Of a DNA stretch of 64,000 bases, positions 32,181 through 58,346 are shown piece by piece. A program made the translations under genes and the position numbers. Below the pieces are notes generated by a model. It was not told the DNA's origin, searched no databases, and worked only from the letters and a program-made list of their open reading frames with translations. Every line of letters begins with the position of its first letter. Position 1 is the stretch's first letter. Source of the DNA: Channallabes apus (taxonomy: Eukaryota; Chordata; Actinopteri; Siluriformes; Clariidae); assembly GCA_030522415.1 (NCBI GenBank), contig CM060106.1, forward strand, positions 30,858,485 to 30,922,484. The letters run 5' to 3'.

Positions 32181-33419
32181 ATGGCGCTTACAGGTGCGCA
32201 GGATTTGACTTCACTCACGCGTCGTCACGGTGTGAAAGTGGCGTCTGCAGTGAGTGTGGAGAGTTGTTGTCTAGCTGTGGGTGAAATTGTGGGACACGAT
32301 AATGTACTGTCTGCCTCAAGAATGAATAGTGCCATCGTTATCTTTTTAAGCACAATTGAAAAGGCTAACGAGTTAGTTCAGAGAGGAGTTGCACTTGACG
32401 GCGTTCTCACTCCCGTTCTACCACTTTCATTACCGTCAAAACGAGTCACCATCTCGAATGTCCCGCCGTTTATTAGTGATGAAGTCTTAGTACAAGCACT
32501 GTCTCGCTACGGAAAACTGGTTTCCTCCATTAAAAAGATTCCAATTGGTGGCGTTTCTCCTTTACTGAAACACGTTGTATCCTTCAGACGCTCAGTTTAC
32601 ATGATTGTAAACAATGACGCTGATCTGGACCTCGCGCTGAATTTCCGAGTGGATGACTTTGACTATGTGGTTTTTATAACCACTGACAAGATCAAATGTT
32701 TTGGCTGTGGAACAATCGGCCACTTGGTCCGATCTTGTCCCGGCAAACAAGGAAAGAGTGGCCGTGTGGCTGGCGCGGAAAGCGCAGCTAATGACGGAGA
32801 ACAATCGGCCAAAGACCCCGCGGAGGTGGAGTCAGCGGCGGGGCAGGTGAGCACTCATGACGGCGCTCATGGCGCTGAGAGTGCAGTGGTTTCAGTGGAG
32901 GAGGAAATCCAAAGTGCAAAAGATGCCGAAGACGAGGGAGACAAAGGTGAGTCAAGCGATAAAATGGATGTAGAAATTGGCATCGCGGACACTCGGGAGG
33001 CTGACAGTAGGCCTAATGAAACTGGTGCAGAACAAACTGTGTTTAAGGTGCCACTGAAAAGGAAGAAGTCAGACAAAGTAAACAATCCTCGGCAGGTTAA
33101 AAAAGTAGATCTTGAAGATGTTCCCGATCAGATCGATTCAGAGAGTGACAGTGAGCTATCTGACTCAAGCGTTACTCTGTCACAAAGTAGCTTTTCTAAC
33201 CGTAACTATGACGTAGATGACATTAAACTGTTCCTTAAGTTAATAAAGAAAAAGAGAGGGGTCATAGTCAGTGATTACTTCCCAGATGTGGTACAGTTTG
33301 TAGAAAAAACTAAAACTTTTATGGATGAAGGCTGTTTTTTAAATAAAGAAGTGACCCGGTTAAAGAACATAATGCGCAAACTTAATATGGACTTGAATGA
33401 TGGCGGTGAAAAAGCTTAA
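32181..33419 (+). CDS. LINE ORF1, nucleic-acid-binding protein with a zinc knuckle
   Basis: A 412-residue protein read from the first ATG after the leader, in the context 'ggggaaacATGGCG'. ORF1 proteins of this clade bind element RNA and chaperone nucleic acid in the retrotransposition particle. About residues 85-170 (from 'KRVTISNVPPFISDE') have the look of an RRM-like fold. A gag-type knuckle CX2CX4HX4C (CFGCGTIGHLVRSC) lies at about 173-186. The second half is acidic and Ser/Glu/Asp-rich, with a basic nuclear-localisation-like patch (PLKRKKSDK) at about residues 290-300 and a charged C-terminus. The domain order matches Tx1-type ORF1 rather than mammalian L1 ORF1. The stop lies 23 bases inside ORF2. 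Confidence 0.85.
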   Translation: MALTGAQDLTSLTRRHGVKVASAVSVESCCLAVGEIVGHDNVLSASRMNSAIVIFLSTIEKANELVQRGVALDGVLTPVLPLSLPSKRVTISNVPPFISDEVLVQALSRYGKLVSSIKKIPIGGVSPLLKHVVSFRRSVYMIVNNDADLDLALNFRVDDFDYVVFITTDKIKCFGCGTIGHLVRSCPGKQGKSGRVAGAESAANDGEQSAKDPAEVESAAGQVSTHDGAHGAESAVVSVEEEIQSAKDAEDEGDKGESSDKMDVEIGIADTREADSRPNETGAEQTVFKVPLKRKKSDKVNNPRQVKKVDLEDVPDQIDSESDSELSDSSVTLSQSSFSNRNYDVDDIKLFLKLIKKKRGVIVSDYFPDVVQFVEKTKTFMDEGCFLNKEVTRLKNIMRKLNMDLNDGGEKA

Positions 33420-36400
33420 ATTAACAAAAATGAATTATAGTAGTCTGGTTGTACTTCTACTTCTATTTATGAGTATGACTGAAGTGTGTGTTGCATCACT
33501 TAATGTGAATGGTGCTAGAAATAGCAGAAAAAGAGCTGAACTGTTTGAAGTTATTAAACAAAAAAATATAGATGTTACTTTCATTCAAGAGACACACAGT
33601 GATGCTACAAATGTTGCTGACTGGATGCAGGAATGGGATGGTGTTTCTGTCCTAAGTCACAAAACCACACTTAGTGGTGGTGTGGGGATCTTGTTTTCTA
33701 AACACTTTTGTCCAACTTCATATCAAGTTGATGAGATTGTGAAAGGAAGGCTTTTAAAAATAAGAGCAATTTTTGAAAAATATGTTCTGATTTTTGTCTG
33801 TGCTTATGCACCAACATTGGCAATGGAAAGAGTATTGTTTTTGGATACGCTTAGTTCAACAATACAAAGTTGTAGTACAGAAGAATATTTATTCTTAGGC
33901 GGCGACTTTAATTGCACAGAAAGTCCTATAGACAGAAATCACACTGAGCCCCATATGCTTTCACGTAAACGCCTTATTAGAGTTATAAACATGAATGATC
34001 TATGTGATATTTGGAGGCATTTTCATGACGGACAGAGACAATATACATGGGCTCATGCTCGTGACAATCTTCTGTCTCTTGCAAGATTAGATCGCTTTTA
34101 TAGTTTTAAACATCAGTTGGGCATTTTCAAAAGCTGTGTTATCTCTCCAGTCAGTTTTTCTGATCATCACATGATCTTGTGTTTCTTCGTTTTAAGTCAA
34201 ATTAAGCCCCACAGTGCTTATTGGCATTTTAACATCAATTTATTGTGTAATAAGGACTTTAAGGATGTCTTTAAGTTCTTTTGGGAAGATTTTAGAAAAA
34301 CTAAAGATTTGTTTCAAGATTTAAAGCAATGGTGGGACTTTGGAAAGGTTCAAATAAAACAACTTTGTCAACAGTACACTTATAACATTACCAAAGAGTT
34401 AAATAAATCGATGAAAGCCTTGGAGACGGATATAATCAAATTACAAAGTCTAGTTGAATCCACAAATAATAAAAACTACGCAGAGATGATCTCAAACAAA
34501 AAAACACAGCTAGCAGACCTACTGGGATTAAAAACACAAGGAGCTCTGATTCGTTCCCGTTTTTTAAGCATTGAACAGATGGATGCACCATCTAAATATT
34601 TTTTTAGTCTTGAAAAGAAAAATGGGCAAAAACGTTTTCTGCATGTTTTGCGCTCTGAGACAGGAGACATTTTAACTAGTCACGCAGAAATACGTAAAAG
34701 AGCTTGTACATTTTATGAAAACTTGTATAAGAATGAGTTGAGAGCAGAGTGGGATTCTGAGAATTCTTTCTTTGTAGGCCTGAACCAAATGTCAGAGGGG
34801 GCCAATGCAGATCTCTCAGGCACTTTAAGCCTGGATGAGCTGTACAAGGCCCTACAAGACATGGATTCTGGAAAAGTCCCTGGAATCGATGGACTTCCGG
34901 TTGAATTTTATAAATTCTTTTGGACAGAGGTAGGGGACGATCTTTTGCACGTGCTCAATGACAGTTTGGCCTCAGGCAAGTTGCCGGTAAGTAGCCGTAG
35001 AGCGGTCATCACTCTTCTTCCCAAAAAAGGAGACCTTTTAGAAATTAAGAACTGGCGTCCCGTCTCACTTTTATGCTCCGACTATAAACTGCTTTCTAAA
35101 GCTCTAGCTAACAGGTTAACAAAGGTAATTGATCAGGTGGTGCATCCAGATCAGACCTATTGTGTTCCGGGTAGGTCTATTTTTGACAATATTAATCTTA
35201 TGCGAGATATGTTTGATGTCTCCAAGTTGCTTGGTGTTAATATTGGACTTATTTCTCTAGACCAGGAAAAAGCTTTTGATAGGGTTGAGCACCCTTACTT
35301 GTGGAGAACATTAGAAGCTTTTGGAATTTGTCAGGATTTTATTGACAAAGTGAAAGTTCTCTATGGTGATGTTGAAAGTGTGCTGAAAATAAACGGTGGC
35401 TTATGCACTCCTTTTAAGGTTCACAGGGGCATAAGACAAGGTTGTTCCTTGTCTGGAATGTTATACTCACTTGCTATAGAACCTTTGTTGCAACAATTGA
35501 GAGAAAAAGTTTGCGGATTGAACCTTCCTGATTGTAAAAACAATATCATTTTATCTGCCTATGCTGATGATGTGGTGGTTTTAATTAATGGGCAAAATGA
35601 CGTCAAAGTATTAATGGAAATCTTAGAAGATTTTAAAGCTTTATCATCTGCAAAAGTTAATTGGAGCAAGAGTGAAGCACTTTTAATTGGACAGTGGCTA
35701 AAAGGGAAACCCAGCCTTCCTGATGGTTTGAACTGGGGAACAAGAGGGTTTAAGTACCTAGGTGTGTATTTGGGAGATGAAATGTTCATCCAGAAAAACT
35801 GGGAAGGGGTTGCTGATAAAGTGAAAGGTAGACTTGACAAATGGAAATGGTTAATACCAAAGATGTCATACAAAGGGAGAATATTAATTGTGAACAATTT
35901 AGTAGCCTCCAGCCTTTGGCACAGGCTTGCCTGTTTAGATCCTCCCTCACAACTATTGATAGAAATTCAAGGAGTCTTAATAAATTTTTTTTGGGATAAC
36001 TTGCATTGGGTGCCACAGAATGTGTTGTATTTACCTAAAGAAGAGGGTGGTCATGGTTTAATACAACTAAAAAGCAGAATAGCAGCATTCCGTTTGCAAT
36101 TTTTACAAAGATTTTTGTATGGATCCACAATGAATGGTTGGCGGGCTGTTACATGCTCCATTTTGCATAATGTTGCAGGTTTGGGGTTGGATAAATCCTT
36201 GTTTTTAATGGACCCCCTTAAACTGAATGTGAGTAGACTGCCAGTGTTTTATAATAATCTCTTTAAGGTTTGGAGCCTATTTGATTTGCAGAGAAGTGAG
36301 ACAACACCTTCTCTCCACTGGCTTTTGGAAGAGCCTTTAATAAATGGAGCGCGTTTTGACTTAACAAAGGACAATTCCTTCTATCATGGACTCAATGCAC

Positions 36401-37371
36401 TGTTGATGAACTCACAGATTGTTACTTTTGGCCGCTTGATTCGTGTTGCTGGGATAGATCTTGAAAAAACAGAAGAAGTGGCCGTTTGTCTAAAAATCAG
36501 GTCCTTGCGGACTGTTAAACAGATGTTACAGAACTGGAAGACACTGGTCAGCGATGAAGAAAAAAATCTCCTGATGGACAATGATGAACGAACAAATGAT
36601 ACCAACTCTGAAGATTGTTTCCCTTTATTTACCTTGCTACCCAAAATGGAGGGTTGTAAGGGACCTTATCTAGATGCTGATAAACCCATGTGTTTAAACT
36701 TGTCTACAGCTACTGGCAAAGCTTTTTATAAAATATGTGTTAAAGTTTTTAACAAAAAAGTACTGAATGAAAAAGTTGACACGCCTTGGCGTAAAGTACT
36801 GGGTTTAGAAGAAAATGTAAAACCTGAATGGAGGTCACTGTATAAGCCACCGTTATCTAAACGGGCAGGAGATATACAGTGGAGACTTCTTCACTGCGCC
36901 ATTGCAGTTAATGCTTTTGTTTCAGTCATTAATCCTGAAGTCATTGCTGATTGCCCTTTCTGTTCAAAAAGAGAAACCGTCTTTCATGCCTTCATGGAAT
37001 GTGACAGACTAAAACCTCTATTTTTACTTATGGAAAAAATTTTCATCTCCTTTAATGAATTGTTTTCAATGAAAATGTTTATCTTTGGTTTTAAGTTTGT
37101 TCGATCTAATGAAGTTACATGTCAGCTTTTGAATTTTGTTTTAGGTCAGGCTAAGTTAGCCATTTATATGAGCAGGAAAAATAAGGTTGAAGGACTGCGT
37201 GGTGGAGACGTGGTGGCAATGTTTTTAAATTTGGTGAAATCACGAGTGTTGATTGATTTTTGTTTTTATAAGTCTATAAAGGATTTGATAACTTTTGACA
37301 TGAAATGGTGTCGTAATGGGGCATTGTGCTCAGTTGTTGAAGAAGAGTTATCGTTTTCACATTTGCTGTAG
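33397..37371 (+). CDS. LINE ORF2, APE endonuclease and reverse transcriptase
   Basis: A 1324-residue polyprotein that nicks the target and copies element RNA into it (target-primed reverse transcription). Endonuclease motifs: SLNVNG at about residues 34-39, QETH at about 64, GGDFNC at about 167 and SDHH at about 255. RT motifs: WRPVSLL, the first catalytic aspartate in LDQEKAFD (about 621-628), GIRQGCSLSG, and the catalytic pair in AYADD (about 721-725). A C-terminal Cys/His motif (CPFCSK...H...C) lies at about 1187-1206. No stop or frameshift interrupts it and all visible catalytic residues are present. The start overlaps the ORF1 end by 23 bases in the +1 frame. Residues 12-33 are unusually hydrophobic. 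The true initiator could be the Met at residue 1, 2 or 12. Confidence 0.92.
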   Translation: MMAVKKLKLTKMNYSSLVVLLLLFMSMTEVCVASLNVNGARNSRKRAELFEVIKQKNIDVTFIQETHSDATNVADWMQEWDGVSVLSHKTTLSGGVGILFSKHFCPTSYQVDEIVKGRLLKIRAIFEKYVLIFVCAYAPTLAMERVLFLDTLSSTIQSCSTEEYLFLGGDFNCTESPIDRNHTEPHMLSRKRLIRVINMNDLCDIWRHFHDGQRQYTWAHARDNLLSLARLDRFYSFKHQLGIFKSCVISPVSFSDHHMILCFFVLSQIKPHSAYWHFNINLLCNKDFKDVFKFFWEDFRKTKDLFQDLKQWWDFGKVQIKQLCQQYTYNITKELNKSMKALETDIIKLQSLVESTNNKNYAEMISNKKTQLADLLGLKTQGALIRSRFLSIEQMDAPSKYFFSLEKKNGQKRFLHVLRSETGDILTSHAEIRKRACTFYENLYKNELRAEWDSENSFFVGLNQMSEGANADLSGTLSLDELYKALQDMDSGKVPGIDGLPVEFYKFFWTEVGDDLLHVLNDSLASGKLPVSSRRAVITLLPKKGDLLEIKNWRPVSLLCSDYKLLSKALANRLTKVIDQVVHPDQTYCVPGRSIFDNINLMRDMFDVSKLLGVNIGLISLDQEKAFDRVEHPYLWRTLEAFGICQDFIDKVKVLYGDVESVLKINGGLCTPFKVHRGIRQGCSLSGMLYSLAIEPLLQQLREKVCGLNLPDCKNNIILSAYADDVVVLINGQNDVKVLMEILEDFKALSSAKVNWSKSEALLIGQWLKGKPSLPDGLNWGTRGFKYLGVYLGDEMFIQKNWEGVADKVKGRLDKWKWLIPKMSYKGRILIVNNLVASSLWHRLACLDPPSQLLIEIQGVLINFFWDNLHWVPQNVLYLPKEEGGHGLIQLKSRIAAFRLQFLQRFLYGSTMNGWRAVTCSILHNVAGLGLDKSLFLMDPLKLNVSRLPVFYNNLFKVWSLFDLQRSETTPSLHWLLEEPLINGARFDLTKDNSFYHGLNALLMNSQIVTFGRLIRVAGIDLEKTEEVAVCLKIRSLRTVKQMLQNWKTLVSDEEKNLLMDNDERTNDTNSEDCFPLFTLLPKMEGCKGPYLDADKPMCLNLSTATGKAFYKICVKVFNKKVLNEKVDTPWRKVLGLEENVKPEWRSLYKPPLSKRAGDIQWRLLHCAIAVNAFVSVINPEVIADCPFCSKRETVFHAFMECDRLKPLFLLMEKIFISFNELFSMKMFIFGFKFVRSNEVTCQLLNFVLGQAKLAIYMSRKNKVEGLRGGDVVAMFLNLVKSRVLIDFCFYKSIKDLITFDMKWCRNGALCSVVEEELSFSHLL

Positions 37372-41919: not shown

Positions 41920-42303
41920 TACGAGGGGCGTTCAAGTCAATCCGGAACTTGTGATGAATTTTCTCATGAACGAAGAACAAAAGACTTTAAGTAAATTAAG
42001 GAAATCTTTAAAGAATCCCGGGCAAGGCGGGTTGTTTCCTGATTCTTGAAAATCAATTAATAACTTTTAAGCAACTTGTAGAAGAGATGCGTCTGTAGGA
42101 ATTGTACTGTACACACATTCATGAACTCCACTGGCGCATTACAGGAACTCGGCTATGAGTTACTGACAAATCCTCTGCAGTATATAGTCCTGACCTCGCT
42201 CCAAGTGATTTCCATATGTTCAGGTCATTAAATGATCTTTTATTTTAATCCTCAGAACTGTGTTCAGTTATTCTACACAATAAAAAGTCCTTGTTTGACT
42301 TGA

Positions 42304-45300
42304 GAAGACCTCTTATGATGAATAAAACCACTGGAAAACGTTTTCCCTCGCCCGGACGTGGGTCACCGGGGCCTCCCTCTGGAGCCAGGCCTGGAGGTGG
42401 GGCCCGATGGCGAGCGCCTGGTGGTCGGGCCTGCACCCATGGGGCCCGGCCGGGCACAGCCCGAAGAGGCAACATGGGTCCCCCTTCCCATGGGCTCACC
42501 ACCTGTAGGAGGGGCCAAAGAGGTCGGGTGCACTGTGAGCTGGGCGGTGGCCGAAGACAGGGGCCTTGGCGGTCTGATCCTCGGCTGCAGAAGCTGGCTC
42601 TAAGGACGTGGAATGTCACCTCTCTGGCGGGGAAGGAGCCTGAGCTAGTGCGTGAGGTTGAGAAGTTCCGGCTAGATATAGTTGGACTCACCTCAACGCA
42701 CAGCTTGGACTCTGGAACCAGTCTCCTTGAGAGGGGCTGGACTCTCTTCTACTCTGGAGTTGCCACCGGTGAGAGGCGACGAGCAGGTGTGGGCATACTT
42801 ATTGCCCCCCGGCTCGGGGCCTGTACATTGGGGTTCACCGCAGTGGATGAGAGGGTGGCCTCCCTCCGCCTTCGGGTGGGGGGACAGATCCTTACTGTTG
42901 TTTGCGCTTATGCGCCGAACAGCAGTTTGGAGTACCCGCCCTTTTTGGGGTCTCTGGAGGGGGCGCTAGAGAACGTCCCTCCTGGGGACTCCTTCGTTCT
43001 GTTGGGGGACTTCAATGCTCACGTGGGAATGACAGTGAGACCTGGAAGGGCGTGATTGGGATGAACGGCCCCCCCGATCTGAACCAGAGCGGTGTTTTGT
43101 TATTGGACTTTTGTGCTCGTCACAGATTGTCCATAACGAACACCATGTTCAGACATAAGGGTTTCCATATGTGCACCTGGCACCAGGACACTCTAGGTCG
43201 CAGTTCGATGATCGACTTTGTGGTCGTGTCGTCGGACTTGCGGCCACATGTCTTGGACACTTGGGTGAAGACAGGGGCGGAGCTGTCAACTGATCACCAC
43301 CTGGTGGTGAGTTGGCTTTGGTGGCGGGGTAGGATGCCGGTCAGGCCTGGTAGACCCAAACGTATTGTGAGGGTCTGCTGGGAACGTCTGGCAGAGTCCC
43401 CTGTCAGGACAAGCTTCAACTCCCACCTCCGGCAAAGCTTCAACCACGTCCTGGGGGAGGTGGGGGACATTGAGTCCGAATGGACTATGTTCCGCGCCTC
43501 CTTTGTCGAGGCAGCCGACTGGAGCTGTGGCCGTAATGTGGTCGGTGCCTGTCGCCGTGGCAACCCAAGAACCCGTTGGTGGACACCGGCGGTGAGGGAT
43601 GCCATCAAGCTGAAGCAGTCTTACCGGGCCTTTTTGGGTGGTGGCACTCCGGAGGCAGCTGATAGGTACCGGCAGGCCAAGCGGAATGCAGCTTCGGTGG
43701 TTGCTGAGGCAAAAACCCGGGCATGGGAATGACTTCCAGACGGCTTCGAAGAGATTCTGGTCCACCATCCGGCGTCTCAGGAGGGGAAAGCAGTGCATGG
43801 TCAACACAGTGTATAGTGGGGATGGTGCGCTGCTGACCTCGACTCAGGACGTTGTGGGTCGGTGGGAGGAGTACTTCAAAGACCTCCTTAATTCCACCAA
43901 CATGCCTTCCGATGAGGAAGCAGAGTCTGGAGACATAGAGGTGGACTCTTCCATCTCTGGGGCCGAGGTCGCCGAGGTGATCAAAAAGCTCCGTCGTGGC
44001 GGGGCCCCAGGGCTGGATGAGATCCGCCCGGAGTTTCTCAAGGCTCTGGATGTTGTAGGGCTGTCATGGTTGATACGTCTCTGCAACATTGCATGGACAT
44101 CGGGGACAGTGCCTCTGGACTGGCAAACCGGGGTGGTGGTCCCCCTCTTCATGAAGGGGGACCGGAGAGTGTGTTCCAACTACAGAGGGATCACACTCCT
44201 CAGCCTCCCCGGGAAAGTCTATTCAGGGGTCCTGGAAAGTAGGGTCCGTCGGATAGTTGAACCTCGGATTCAGGAGGAGCAGTGTGGTTTTCATCCAGGT
44301 TGCGGAACAGTGGACCAGCTCTACAGCCTTAGCAGGGTCCTGGATGGGGCCTGGGAGTTTGCCCAACCAGTCTACATGTGCTTTGTGGACTTGGAGAAGG
44401 CATTCGACCGTGTCCCTCGGGGAGTCCTGTGGGGGGTACTCCGGGAGCCGGTAGTAAGTCGGACATGTTTCCGGTGAGAGTAGGACTCCGACAGGGCTGC
44501 CCTTTGTCACCGATCCTGTTCATAATTTTTATGGACAGGATTTCTAGGCGCAGCCAGGGCGTTGAGGGGGTACAGTTTGGTGGGCTCAGGATTGGGTCAC
44601 TGCTTTTTGCAGATGACGTTCTGTTGGCCTCATCATCCTGCAACCTACAGCTCTCACTGGACCGATTCGCAGCCGAGTGTGAACTGGCTGGGATGAGAAT
44701 CAGCACCTCCAAATCTGAGGCCATGGTCCTCAGCCGGAAAAGGGTGGAGTGCCCTCTCAGGGTTGGGAGTGAGATCCTGCCCCAAGTGGAGGAGTTTAAG
44801 TATCTCGGGGTCTCGTTCACGAGTGAGGGTAAAATGGAACGGGAGATCGACAGGCGGATCGGGGCAGCGTCTGCAGTGATGCGGGCTCTGTATCGGTCCG
44901 TCGTGGTGAAGGAGCTGAGCCAAAAGGCAAAGCTCTCAATTTACCGGTCGATCTATGTTCCTACCCTCACCTATGGTCATGAGCTGTGGGTAGTGACCGA
45001 AAGAACAAGATCGTGAATTCAAGCGGCCCGAAATGAGTTTCCTCCGCAGGGTGTCTGGGCTCTCCCTTAGAGATAGGGTGAGAAGCGCAGTCATCCGGGA
45101 GGGGCTCAGAGTAGAGCCGCTGCTCCTCCGCATCGAGAGGAGCCAGATGAGGTGGCTTGGGCATCTATTTAGGATGCCCTCTGGACGCCTCCCTTGTGAG
45201 GTGTTCCGGACACACCCCACCCGAAAGAGACCCCGGGGAAGACCCAGGACACGCTGGAGGGACTATGTCTCTCGGCTGGCCTGGGAACGCCTTGGGATCC

Positions 45301-52212: not shown

Positions 52213-52335
52213 ATACAGTAAATATATGTAAATACGTTTTGCCCTACTGGCACACTTTAAAGATGTTTAAAATAGTGTCCATGCCGTATGTCTTCCGGGG
52301 GTCAAGAGAGTGTCTAGGTGTGACGTGGTCGTTCT

Positions 52336-53202
52336 TGTCAGGGGCCGCTAGGGGGCGTGAGGGATCCAAGTGCAGACAGGGTAAATGGGAGACAGTGGTG
52401 CTTGTGAACAGTGAAGCAGGCAGGGCAGTGATTAAATTCCGCGTTGCAAAATACCTTATGCAGGCAGGAGGCTTCGCCGAAATGCGGAAACACGGAGTAC
52501 CAGCTCGTGACTGTGTCGAGATGGGGAGGCGATGCGTGTGACGCAAGCGTAGCGTAAACACGGAAGTGCGCGAGCCGGCGCGAGTGACAGCTGGGATCAA
52601 TGCAGGCGCGTGCAGCGTGAGCTTGAGCTGTGGCGGCGCGCAGAGCGAGCGCATGCAGAGGGAGCCGGCGCGAGTGACAGCTGGGATCAATGCAGGCGCG
52701 TGCAGCGTGAGCTTGAGCTGTGGCGGCGCGCAGAGCGAGCGCATGCAGAGGGAGAGCTCCGCGATGAGATGCCGGTGTGGATGGAGGGGGAGAGAGCTCA
52801 GCGAGCCGCGAGGGCTAATCGTTGTCGTGAAGCAGGCAGAGGTCGAAGCCGGAGAGACGAGAGGGGGTCCGTGATCCAAGCTCGTAGTCGTAAACAGGTA
52901 AGAGGTCGGCAACATGAAATATCCAAAGTATAGTATCCAAAAACGAGAGACAAAATCGTGGTCGGGGAAAACAAAGCGTGGTCGAGATCCAATAGACAAT
53001 GAAGAAAAATCGCTGGAAGATTGGGCTAGTGAGGCACACAATAATCTGGCGACGAGGCAGTGTCAGGGTGTGGTTTAAATAGGTAACAGGGCTGATTACT
53101 AATAGCGTCCAGGTGTACAGGGAGGAGAGGGGGCGTGGTGCCATGCGAGAGTTGTTGACAAACATGGATCATGACGGAGCTGTGGCTTGGCGTGTCATGA
53201 CA
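52336..53202 (-). repeat. 3' LTR of the chromovirus
   Basis: 867 bp, from TGTCA to TGACA in + orientation. It contains a TATTTAAA box (minus strand, 53081-53074), the predicted transcript start at about 53050 and a 90-bp unit in two tandem copies (52572-52751). ORFs on both strands here are shadows. Confidence 0.95.
52572..52751. repeat. 90-bp tandem duplication inside the LTR
   Basis: Two adjacent identical-looking 90-bp units start at 'gagccggcgcgagtgacag' (52572 and 52662). They are GC-rich with several 'gcgcg'. The same pair occurs in the other LTR at 57711-57890. In element sense they lie downstream of the predicted transcript start, so in the leader and not in the promoter. Confidence 0.95.
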
Positions 53203-55667
53203 GTACCCTCCCCTCTATGAACGCCTCCAGGCGTTCTTGCAGGTGCTTCGGGGTGAAGTCTGTGGAAATCAGAGATTAGAGAACGGTCTAGGATAAACCT
53301 GGCGGGTACCCAACTCCTCTCTTCAGGGCCATAGCCTTCCCAGTCTACTAAGTACTGGAGGCCCCGCCCCCGGCGGCGAGACTTGAGGAGCTTGTGAACT
53401 GTGAAGGCTTCTCCCCCATCAATGAGTCGGGGGGGTGGGGGGGGCTGGGGGGGGGTGGACAATGGGCAGGAGACTAAACGACGAATCTGGGAAACATGAA
53501 ATGTGGGGTTGATCCGGCGCATGGAGAGGGGTAGAGCAAGACGGACAGAGCATGGGTTTATGATTCGGGTGATGGGGAAGGGTCCGATGAATCTTGGTGA
53601 GAGCTTTCTGGACGTGGTCTTGAGTGGGAGGTCCCGTGTAGACAGCATGACCCTTTGGCCGATACGGTAGTTGGGAGCTGGTGACCGATGACGATTTGCC
53701 TGGCGTTGAAAAGTGCTTACAGTGCGTAGGAGCTGCTGCCGGGCGTGTTGCCATGTTCTTTTGCAGCGACGGACAAAGGTTTGGGCTGAGGGTACTGCTA
53801 CTTCCTTTTCTTGGACCGGGAAGAGGGGTGGTTGATACCCCAGACAGCAGTGGAAAGGGGACATGCCTGTCGAGGAGGTAGGGAGCGAGTTGTGGGCGTA
53901 CTCGACCCATGGTAGGAAACGACTCCAGGAGGATGGATCCCGCGAGGCCATGCATCTTAAGGATTTCTCCAACTCTTGGTTCACTCGTTCTGTTTGACCG
54001 TTGGTTTGGGGATGAAATCCGGATGAGAGGCTGGGGTTGGCGCCGACAAGGTTACAAAAGGCCTTCCAGAACTGGGCAGAAAACTGAGGACCCCTGTCTG
54101 AGACAATGTCGACGGGAAGTCCGTGAAGTCGAAAGACATGATTAATTAGGAGTTCGGCTGTTTCCTTGGCCGATGGGAGTTTGGATAGTGGGATGAAATG
54201 CGCCGATTTGGAAAAGCGGTCCACGATAGTTAATATGCACGTGTTATTTTGGGAAGGAGGCAGGCCAGTGACGAAGTCGATGGAGATGTGTGACCAGGGG
54301 CGGTGAGGGATGGGGAGGGGTCTAAGGAGACCCTCAGGGGAGCGGTTGGTTGTTTTATTTCTGGTACAGGTGTCGCAGGAAGCCACAAGGCTCTTGACAT
54401 CCTCTTTCATGGTGGACCACCAAAAACGTTGGCGTAGGAGGGAGAGCGTACGTGCGGCCCCAGGGTGGCAAGCCAGTCTGGAGCTGTGGGCCCAGTCAAG
54501 CACCTGTGGTCTCACAGAAGCTGGGACGAAGAGCTTGTTGGGTGGAACGGTGCTTGGGCCGGGTTCTCGTTCGAGGGTCTGTTGAACCAGACGTTCCACG
54601 TTGAATTGGAGCATTGCTACCAGGCAGTGAGGAGGAAGAATCACCTCCGTCATGGATGAATCCTGAGGGGTGGAGAATTGTCGGGAGAGGGCATCAGGCT
54701 TGATGTTCTTGGAGCCAGGGCGATATGACAGTGTGAATCGGAAACGGGAGAAAAATAGTGACCATCGTGCTTGGCGTGAGTTAAGTCTCTTCGCTGTCTT
54801 CAAGTACTCCAGGTTTTTATGGTCGGTCCATACGAGGAAGGGGTGGTCCGCCCCTTCTAGCCAGTGTCTCCATTCTTCCAAGGCCAACTTGACCGCCAAG
54901 AGTTCACGGTCCCCAATACCGTAATTGCGTTCAGCAGGTGTGAGTCGGCGGGAGAAGAAGGAGCATGGGTGGATTTTAGCATCCTTTGTGGATCTCTGGG
55001 ACAGGACGGCGCCTACTCCAGTCTCAGACGCGTCTACTTCCACGATAAACTGGAGGGAGGGTTCGGGAAAAATAAGGATGGGTGCCGTAGTGAAGCGGGA
55101 CTTGAGATCCTTGAAGGCTATGTCAGCCTGGGGGTTCCATCGGAATGGGATCTTGGAGGACGTAAGTGTCGTGAGTGGGGTTGCCACCATGCTGTAGCTT
55201 CGAATAAAACGTCGATAGAAGTTTGCGAATCCCAAGAACCGCTGGAGTTCGCGTCTTGAGGTCGGTACTGGCCAGTCCGTGACTGCCTTCACCTTGGTGG
55301 GGTCCATCTGGATGCCTGCAGGGGAAATGAAGTATCCTAGAAAGGACGTGGAGGTACAATGAAATTCACATTTCTCTGCCTTGATGTAGAGCTTATTCTC
55401 CAGGAGCCGTTGCAGGACCTGGCGCACATGGAGCTTGTGTTCCCTCACCGAACGTGAAAAAATCAGGATATCATCCAGATAAGCGAAGACGAAAACATTA
55501 AGAAAGTCTCTGAGGACATCATTGATTAGGGCCTGGAATACTGCCGGCGCGTTGGTTAGGCCGAATGGGACCACTAGGTACTCATAATGGCCGGTAGGTG
55601 TGTTAAAGGCGGTCTTCCATTCGTCGCCCTCCCGTATCCTGACAAGGTGGTAGGCGTTCCTTAAATC
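53169..55667 (-). CDS. Chromovirus pol, second part: RT core, RNase H, integrase, chromodomain
   Basis: Open from about 55667 to a stop at 53169; 801 residues follow the VPFGLTNAP segment. Residue numbers count from there. RT catalytic YLDD at 32-35. RNase H, first aspartate in VDASETG at 181, then DHKNLEYL. Integrase zinc-binding H...H...CDTC (about 363-403) and the DDE triad at D433 (IDFVTG), D493 (SDRGPQF) and E529 (NGQTERVN). A C-terminal chromodomain ([15 protein letters not shown], about residues 725-745) would steer integration by chromatin marks. The frame lies downstream of a frameshift, so it is translated only if that is bypassed. The last 11 codons run into the LTR. Confidence 0.92.
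53203..53218 (-). promoter_or_regulatory. Polypurine tract, plus-strand DNA primer
   Basis: Directly next to the 3' LTR the minus strand reads AGAGGGGAGGGTAC, the expected purine-rich primer for second-strand synthesis. It lies within the pol coding region. Confidence 0.85.
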
Positions 55668-56524
55668 TTAGTATAGATGCGGGCGTCCTGGAGAAGTTCA
55701 AAGGCCGACGACATCAAGGGGAGAGGGTAACGGTTCTTAATCGTGATCTCGTTCAACCCCCTATAATCGATACAGGGTCTGAGGGACTTATCCTTCTTTT
55801 CAACGAAGAAAAACCCAGCCCCTGCTGGTGAAGAGGATGGGCGGATGATCCCAGCTGCAAGTGATTCCTTTATATACTGTTCCATTGCCTCTCTCTCGGG
55901 GCGGGAGAGGGAGTACAGTCGCCCCTTAGGTGGTGAGGTGCCTGGGAGGAGGTCGATAGCACAGTCATAGGGGCGATGCGGGGGTAGGGAGGTGGCCCGT
56001 GATTTGCTAAACACCTGCCGAAGGTCATGATAGTCCGTGGGTAACTTGGTTAGGTCGGGAGTTTCCTCTTGTGGCGTGGGTAAACTTCGGCCCATATGTG
56101 CTGAACGTAAGCATGAAGAGAGGCAGGTGGGACTCCAGTCCAGGACTCTCCTTTTAATCCAGTCGATGTGCGGGTTGTGTAGTCTTAGCCAAGGGAGGCC
56201 CAGAACGATGGGTGCATGGGAATTTTGAACGGTTAGGAAGGTAATCGTTTCAGTGTGATTGCCTGAAAACTGCAGGGTCACGGGGTTGGTGCGATGAGTG
56301 ATGGGGGAGAGTCTGCTGCCATCAAGAGCCTGAACCGTAAAGGGTTGATGCAGGGGCGTGAGGGGGATCTTGAAGTTTGAAACAATGGAGGAAGAAATTA
56401 GATTCTGATCAGCCCCGGAGTCCACTAGTGCGTACGTGGCATAGGATTGGTCGCCGTGGGTCAGAGTTACGGAGAAGCATGATCGCTGGTCCGGGGAAGA
56501 AACAGATGCTGGGCCCCCCTGCAT
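55661..56524 (-). CDS. Chromovirus pol, first part: protease and RT N-terminus
   Basis: 287 residues from the first Met. The frame is also open upstream across the end of gag. The aspartic protease motif [10 protein letters not shown] (about residues 34-43) cuts the polyprotein. The RT N-terminus follows: [20 protein letters not shown] and [23 protein letters not shown]. The frame stops at 55661-55663, just where the first RT catalytic aspartate is expected. Comparison with the next frame shows a net loss of four bases immediately before that aspartate codon. The aspartate itself is still encoded, in the other frame. The frame is -1 relative to gag, as expected for frameshifted Gag-Pol. Confidence 0.9.
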
Positions 56525-56544: not shown

Positions 56545-57453
56545 CTAGCCTTTTAGTGGACAGGATCGCACAACATGGCCGACCTGGCCACAGTAGAAAC
56601 AGGCGCCCTCATTTCTACGGCGCTGACGCTCCTCCGGCGAGATGCGTGCACGGCCTATCTGCATGGGCTCAGGGGGTGGCTGGGGTGTAGCCAGGGTGAG
56701 TGTTGGGGTGCGTGGTTCGCGATAAGGCTGCTGCTCCTTTCGGCGTGCCCGTTTACGGTCATCAATGCGGGTCGTTAAGTCGATGAGTCCTTGTAAGTTC
56801 GAGGGCAGCTCCCGGGCCGCCAGCTCGTCCTTAATTGGGTCTGAGAGCCCATGAAAAAAGCAGTCGAAGAGGGCCCTCTCGTCCCAGTCGCAAGAGGGAG
56901 CCAGGGTCCGAAATTCGATGGCATAATCAGAAACGGAACGAATTCCTTGACGTAGCTGAAGGATGTGATCAGCCGCTTGATGTCCCGTAAAGGAGCGGTC
57001 AAAGACCTTCCTCATTTCATCCGTGAAGGTCCTATAGGCGAAGCAGCACGGGACTTGGGCATCCCACAATGCCGTCCCCCACTCTCTCGCCTTTCCTGAC
57101 AGGAGGGTGATGATGTAGGCCACCTTGGAACGCTCCGTGGGAAATGATGTGGCCTGTAGTTCCAGGACGAGAGAGCATTGAGACAAAAAGGAGCGGCAGG
57201 TGGCTGGATCTCCATCATAGGTGGGCGGTGCTGGCAGGCGGGGCTCTAGGCCAGGCGAGAGTGTTGGAGGGAGGGGCTGAGGAGTGTGTGCAGGAGGTTG
57301 TAGGTTCCCAACCTGAGCAGAGAGAGACTGCAGTGTTTCCGTGATGCTTTGAAGTGAGATCGTGATCTGTCTTATTTCCTGCTGGTGGGCGCCTAAGAGT
57401 ACTCCTTGACTCTCTAATGCTCCTCTCAGGTGAGCTGCCTCTGCTGGATCCAT
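56545..57453 (-). CDS. Chromovirus Gag
   Basis: 302-residue structural protein that packages element RNA. It starts at MDPAEAAHL, only 21 bases after the 5' LTR. An N-terminal coiled-coil-like segment (about 10-50) and a proline-rich linker (about 52-75) are followed by a retrotransposon Gag capsid-like region ([11 protein letters not shown]... through WGTALWD... and FDRSFTG, about 75-240). A CCHC knuckle ([14 protein letters not shown]) lies at 285-298, four residues before the stop. No internal stop. No canonical slippery heptamer was obvious in the overlap with pol. Confidence 0.92.
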
Positions 57454-57462
57454 TTTAGTATG

Positions 57463-57473
57463 GCCAGATTATT
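57463..57473 (-). promoter_or_regulatory. Self-complementary primer binding site
   Basis: On the element strand, one base after the 5' LTR, the sequence AATAATCTGGC occurs. It does not look like a tRNA 3' end (no TGG at the LTR junction). It is perfectly complementary over 11 bases to GCCAGATTATT at 58189-58179 (and 53050-53040), at the predicted 5' end of the transcript. This is the Tf1/sushi type of self-priming. Confidence 0.85.
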
Positions 57474-58178
57474 CTGTCAGGGGCCGCTAGGGGGCGTGAG
57501 GGATCCAAGTGCAGACAGGGTAAATGGGAGACAGTGGTGCTTGTGAACAGTGAAGCAGGCAGGGCAGTGATTAAATTCCGCGTTGCAAAATACCTTATGC
57601 AGGCAGGAGGCTTCGCCGAAATGCGGAAACACGGAGTACCAGCTCGTGACTGTGTCGAGATGGGGAGGCGATGCGTGTGACGCAAGCGTAGCGTAAACAC
57701 GGAAGTGCGCGAGCCGGCGCGAGTGACAGCTGGGATCAATGCAGGCGCGTGCAGCGTGAGCTTGAGCTGTGGCGGCGCGCAGAGCGAGCGCATGCAGAGG
57801 GAGCCGGCGCGAGTGACAGCTGGGATCAATGCAGGCGCGTGCAGCGTGAGCTTGAGCTGTGGCGGCGCGCAGAGCGAGCGCATGCAGAGGGAGAGCTCCG
57901 CGATGAGATGCCGGTGTGGATGGAGGGGGAGAGAGCTCAGCGAGCCGCGAGGGCTAATCGTTGTCGTGAAGCAGGCAGAGGTCGAAGCCGGAGAGACGAG
58001 AGGGGGTCCGTGATCCAAGCTCGTAGTCGTAAACAGGTAAGAGGTCGGCAACATGAAATATCCAAAGTATAGTATCCAAAAACGAGAGACAAAATCGTGG
58101 TCGGGGAAAACAAAGCGTGGTCGAGATCCAATAGACAATGAAGAAAAATCGCTGGAAGATTGGGCTAGTGAGGCACAC

Positions 58179-58189
58179 AATAATCTGGC
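58179..58189 (-). promoter_or_regulatory. Predicted transcript 5' end, self-primer sequence
   Basis: GCCAGATTATT on the minus strand starts 31 bases after the first base of the TATTTAAA box. It would therefore be the first 11 bases of the element RNA if transcription starts at the normal distance. It pairs exactly with the primer site at 57463-57473. Confidence 0.75.
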
Positions 58190-58212
58190 GACGAGGCAGT
58201 GTCAGGGTGTGG

Positions 58213-58220
58213 TTTAAATA
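58213..58220 (-). promoter_or_regulatory. LTR TATA box
   Basis: TATTTAAA on the minus strand, about 121 bases inside the 5' LTR. It is the only clear TATA-like site near the upstream end of the LTR. The equivalent in the other LTR is 53074-53081. Confidence 0.75.
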
Positions 58221-58346
58221 GGTAACAGGGCTGATTACTAATAGCGTCCAGGTGTACAGGGAGGAGAGGGGGCGTGGTGCCATGCGAGAGTTGTTGACAA
58301 ACATGGATCATGACGGAGCTGTGGCTTGGCGTGTCATGACAGTTCT

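Follow-up and report, generated by a model that had tools for sequence, protein, structure and literature searches.

A young chromovirus copy in a fish genome predicted to prime reverse transcription with the 5′ end of its own RNA

Within the window, by which we mean the whole 64-kb stretch of Channallabes apus DNA analysed here, an LTR retrotransposon with both ends kept lies on the minus strand at 58341-52336. Judged from its sequence, the best explanation of this element, to which we give a probability of roughly 0.86, is a young fish copy of a Tf1/sushi-type chromovirus whose own RNA serves as the primer for minus-strand DNA. The sequence-only reading of this DNA had already proposed self-priming, and the proposal is now supported by an 11/11 match at both of the positions where it would be expected, by the lack of a TGG close to the LTR, and by sushi-type affinities of the proteins and LTR ends. 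The features on which this reading draws are as follows.

58342-58346, minus strand: target-site duplication AGAAC, upstream copy, 5 bp
58341-57475, minus strand: 5′ LTR, 867 bp, TGTCATGACA...CCCCTGACA, identical to the 3′ LTR
58220-58213, minus strand: putative TATA box TATTTAAA, read from the sequence
58189-58179, minus strand: putative self-primer GCCAGATTATT, predicted to form nt 1-11 of the RNA, exact complement of the primer binding site (PBS)
57711-57893, minus strand: perfect tandem repeat of a 90-bp unit within R/U5 of the 5′ LTR (2.0 copies, 100% matches)
57474-53203, minus strand: internal region between the two LTRs
57473-57463, minus strand: putative self-priming PBS AATAATCTGGC, complement of GCCAGATTATT
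53203-53216, minus strand: purine-rich AGAGGGGAGGGTAC ahead of the 3′ LTR, read from the sequence; its role as polypurine tract is a prediction
53202-52336, minus strand: 3′ LTR, 867 bp, identical to the 5′ LTR
52331-52335, minus strand: target-site duplication AGAAC, downstream copy, 5 bp

The 5′ and 3′ LTRs show no mismatch over 867 bp. Because the LTRs are identical and the 5-bp target duplication AGAAC is present on both flanks, we consider the insertion to be young. The 90-bp tandem pair is found again in the 3′ LTR at 52572-52754 and represents a duplication of recent origin, placed inside the loop that primer and PBS are predicted to close. The purine-rich stretch at 53203-53216 is probably the polypurine tract.

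Complementarity between GCCAGATTATT and AATAATCTGGC extends over 11 of 11 bases. A single spacer base (57474) separates the end of the 5′ LTR from AATAATCTGGC, while GCCAGATTATT starts 31 nt past the first T of TATTTAAA, with C/G at -1/+1 of the putative start at 58189, and has a second copy in the 3′ LTR at 53050-53040. The leader comprises 21 nt (57474-57454) and is followed by the gag ATG at 57453. Re-reading the sequence confirmed all coordinates of the sequence-only reading, which had described the site one base past the 5′ LTR, its 11-base complement beginning 31 bases from the first base of TATTTAAA, and the 21-base leader between LTR and gag ATG. No other exact match between the 21-nt leader and the LTR is as long, and when the first 200 bases past the LTR are compared with the LTR, no other match reaches 10 bases. 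A search rule for self-primers given in PMC6317226 asks for a match of 10 bp or more whose start lies 0-5 bp behind the LTR; here 11 bp start 1 bp after the LTR, the RNA 5′ end being predicted.

By analogy to Tf1, we infer the RNA start, the folding in the cell, the cleavage and the priming. Transcription would start at about 58189, and the first 11 bases of the RNA would fold back across about 0.7 kb of R/U5, forming a duplex with the site that follows the LTR by one base. Reverse transcriptase, through its RNase H, would then cut after base 11, as described for Tf1, where the 11 bases at the RNA 5′ end pair with the PBS and RNase H cleavage falls between bases 11 and 12 (PMC7175516). The freed 3′ end would be extended through the spacer base into the LTR, followed by the usual transfer of the DNA to the 3′ R region.

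The start of the RNA was originally proposed to lie at 58189, 31 nt from the first T of TATTTAAA; a start at A58186 could also be envisaged, in which case 8 bases would be paired. Self-priming would then proceed with an 8-base primer or from a mixed start. YYANWYY is the initiator consensus, and the sequence CCAGATT matches it perfectly, with its A located 34 nt past the first T of TATTTAAA. However, the initiator consensus is matched at five other places in the LTR, and the shorter primer would leave the three further matching bases GCC up to 58189 unexplained. Furthermore, the 8-bp duplex is much weaker, at -5.4 kcal/mol against -14.0 kcal/mol for the 11-bp primer:PBS duplex. We therefore regard a start at A58186 as improbable and retain 58189 as the predicted 5′ end.

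The expected frequency of such a match was estimated with simulated and real sequences. In LTRs generated by a first-order Markov model, an 11-base match anywhere was found in 7/20,000 cases with leader offsets of 0-3 and in 22/40,000 cases with offsets of 0-5. A match of 11 bases with its start 25-40 nt past the TATA position occurred only once in 40,000 Markov LTRs, and one of at least 10 bases in the same band twice in 40,000. Among 20,000 pseudo-LTRs, drawn as random stretches of the window outside the element, 155 contained an 11-base match somewhere and 307 a 10-base match. Similarly, an exact complement within the preceding 867 nt was present for 416 of the 126,238 11-mers of the window. 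Since these real-sequence controls show that the length of the match is only moderately rare, the weight rests on the agreement of both expected positions. The original statement that a chance 11/11 match at both expected positions is very unlikely thus stands (1/40,000 Markov LTRs); a match of this length without regard to position is less rare (155/20,000 real stretches).

The same counts bear on the possibility that the primer is a whole or partial host tRNA and that the 11-base match arose by chance. The frequency of matches somewhere in the pseudo-LTRs leaves room for such a coincidence. In addition, a TGG is present 8 bases past the LTR, and 18 bases would fit into the 21-base leader or overlap the start of gag. 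It had been argued that the leader offers no room for a tRNA site; this argument is not decisive, because an 18-base site fits a leader of 21 bases. Nevertheless, no TGG was found 0-5 bases after the LTR, the range used in the search rule of PMC6317226, the first being that at offset 8, and a match within the band where transcription should start behind the TATA box occurred in only 1 of 40,000 simulated LTRs. Tf1/sushi chromoviruses and most elements of the Tcn1 clade are, moreover, described as lacking tRNA-complementary sites (PMC6317226). ARAGORN, run with its bacterial setting, predicted no tRNA genes in the 64-kb window. Taken together, we consider a tRNA primer very improbable, and self-priming remains the preferred reading.

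We further folded the predicted RNA in silico. The sequence-only reading had suggested folding the first ~740 nt in search of pairing between the 5′ end and the PBS, and the minimum-energy structure computed for the first 735 nt indeed contains the full 11-bp duplex; when the interior was shuffled, however, 39 of 40 folds likewise kept at least 9 of the 11 primer:PBS pairs. Because the duplex is retained in 39/40 shuffled interiors, the predicted fold neither supports nor refutes self-priming. Forcing the duplex costs 0.0 kcal/mol at lengths of 735, 745 and 765 nt; with more of gag included, the cost is 2.5 kcal/mol at 795 nt, 6.7 kcal/mol at 845 nt and 7.5 kcal/mol at 895 nt. At 795 nt, each primer:PBS pair has a probability of 0.0003 and other pairs are preferred.

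According to PMC10085805, Tf1 RNA needs two further duplexes, which together with the first form a three-duplex 'pretzel'. When the region after the primer was compared with the LTR end or with the sequence following the PBS, candidate flanking duplexes of this kind fell within the range of shuffled sequences in 9 of 9 tests, and for the best-ranked one 371 of 2000 shuffles were at least as good; the central duplex is possible. It is conceivable, albeit unlikely, that self-priming in this vertebrate spans ~0.7 kb of R/U5 without the flanking duplexes of Tf1, in a loop holding the recent 90-bp tandem duplication. If true, vertebrates could do without the Tf1-type three-duplex scaffold, and the 11-base match would suffice. 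The match would then perhaps compete with a hairpin that takes in parts of the PBS and the gag start codon.

This hairpin, CUGGCCAU...AUGGAUCCAG at 57467-57444, includes the gag AUG and overlaps the PBS in its 3′ part. That the complementarity serves gag translation control or packaging instead of priming is hardly credible: the hairpin can form at -6.8 kcal/mol in a 34-nt stretch, but 14 of 200 shuffles fold as well, its z-score is only -1.85 in 34 nt and rises to -0.37 and 0.01 in stretches of 50 and 80 nt, and minus-strand priming must start directly after the LTR, where the match sits. A role of the hairpin as a switch was rejected on the same weak statistics in the longer stretches.

The coding region was assigned from open frames and from matches to protein domain models as follows.

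56545-57453, minus strand: gag, with Retrotrans_gag, DUF4939, Ty3_capsid and a CCHC zinc knuckle
55661-56524, minus strand: first part of pol (from the first ATG), with aspartyl protease and the N-terminal part of the reverse transcriptase (RT)
53169-55574, minus strand: remainder of pol in another frame, with the C-terminal part of RT, RNase H, integrase, SH3_Tf2-1 and chromodomain

The paired LTRs, the target duplication, gag and the order PR-RT-RH-IN are those of a Ty3/gypsy (Metaviridae) LTR retrotransposon. The chromodomain (PF00385, E 3.7e-9, residues 724-772 of the 801-aa Pol part) places the element among the chromoviruses. In a comparison by sequence with the PDB, a PEG10 chain was the only match to Gag at E 0.01 (E 2.1e-11), and PEG10 is described as having homology to sushi-ichi. 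M-D or M-E stands at the gag start column in 24 of 25 aligned Gag relatives, 3 of which extend further N-terminally. For 55661-56524, only protease models passed, and the assignment of its end to RT comes from the open frames. The GTG start of 53169-55574 is mechanical, as the open frame begins further upstream. The pol frame is -1 relative to gag, which PMC10085805 gives as usual in Tf1/sushi elements outside fission yeast; the -1 relation was read from the coordinates and frames, and inspection by eye showed no canonical slippery heptamer.

Gag has relatives in 408 proteins, of which the best 120 were listed, and Pol in 6154 of 8000 scored candidates, of which again the best 120 were listed. 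Among the matches listed, most rows lack an organism name, and the named ones are fish, including Takifugu, Gadus, Gasterosteus, Cyprinus and Dallia. By these matches, the element has Gag and Pol of chromovirus type with fish relatives. At the DNA level, a search with the Pol part gave no pattern matches in a collection of viral contigs and 5 in a collection of genome contigs, with none of the latter confirmed. An alignment of 26 Gags gave 22 matches in viral contigs and 39 in genome contigs, none confirmed in either. A 17-base word spanning the LTR/PBS junction matched 2 viral contigs, which we rejected as chance matches on account of the absence of both the 12-base LTR start word and the second complementary site (stretches of 13.5 and 5.9 kb).

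Despite the identical LTRs, the pol frame is interrupted inside RT, at about 55661-55680. Given this frame break near 55.66 kb, the copy probably makes no complete RT itself, although it moved recently. The break and the identical LTRs suggest that the copy may have been mobilised in trans by the proteins of other copies, or may have been broken at or after insertion.

Integrase motifs of the Sushi clade for the LTR ends are given as TGTYANR and CNTNACA (PMC3601003, Table 3), and both ends of the LTR fit them. In a script test of 6 of the 11 clade motif pairs in that table, only Sushi passed at both ends, with the pairs of rGmr1, Mag A, Mag C, CsRN1 and Gamma failing at one or both. By eye, the pairs of Zam, Sire, Retrofit and HML fail at the 5′ LTR end, and the unspecific Class III pair TGT/ACA likewise fits. 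No AATAAA hexamer, allowing at most 1 mismatch, was found in the 867-bp LTR at 58341-57475, which is unexpected in a sushi-type LTR. The Sushi LTR model shows a clear AATAAA, and was trained mainly on LTRs of Danio rerio (PMC3601003). Because the description in PMC3601003 concerns this training set, we do not treat the hexamer as strictly defining.

Several further open frames were observed in the window. A 241-aa frame at 57455-58180 runs through R/U5 and the leader and is probably a by-product of the C-rich LTR. A probable non-LTR retrotransposon with long open frames lies at 32181-37371; its first ORF, of 412 aa, has no Pfam match at 1e-3, and its 1324-aa ORF has endonuclease, RT and zf-RVT matches. 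A second endonuclease/RT element, at 42291-45016, is broken across several frames.

That Tf1 and sushi-type elements of fish self-prime was put forward as known in the sequence-only reading, and the literature bears this out. Self-priming is called a common feature of Tf1/sushi elements in PMC10085805, is described in this group from yeast and vertebrates in PMC6317226, and is implicated from fungi to vertebrates in PMC4600332, with all three citing Butler et al. 2001. As these three papers already attribute self-priming to the group, the element is a fresh example of a known mechanism and not a new one. A search for paper titles naming the primer of this fish family found none; the search was thin on subscription journals, and we do not claim that the primer is unpublished.

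Self-primers have likewise been predicted in other hosts, namely for Tj1 of S. japonicus (PMC4600332), for the plant Tcn1 clade of moss and club-moss (PMC6317226) and for Tcn1 of Cryptococcus (PMC7175516). For SM-Tcn1 of the moss clade, PMC2864245 reports that a self-primer was not found, and the Skipper chromoviruses of Dictyostelium are described as lacking complementary LTR regions (PMC5006619).

With Tf1 of Schizosaccharomyces pombe, the founding self-priming element, the element shares 11 complementary bases between the RNA 5′ end and the site behind the LTR, as well as RNase H and an integrase with a chromodomain. In contrast to Tf1, which has a single ORF (PMC10085805), it carries gag and pol in different frames, and its Gag has a CCHC knuckle, whereas the seven fission-yeast elements are described as having none (PMC10085805). 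The two flanking duplexes required by Tf1 (PMC10085805) also have no counterpart above chance here.

By described features, the element can also be likened to sushi-ichi and other vertebrate Tf1/sushi elements, with which it has in common fish relatives, the chromodomain, the CCHC knuckle, the -1 arrangement of gag and pol, the LTR-end motifs and the predicted self-priming. It differs from the Sushi LTR model of PMC3601003 in the AATAAA, which the model has and this LTR lacks. Its Pol part is 64% identical to the Takifugu rubripes protein P0186. With its identical LTRs, it offers a clean young case of a fish element for which RNA self-priming is predicted. While leaving the overall picture unchanged, it should lend itself to vertebrate tests of a mechanism that was worked out in fission yeast.
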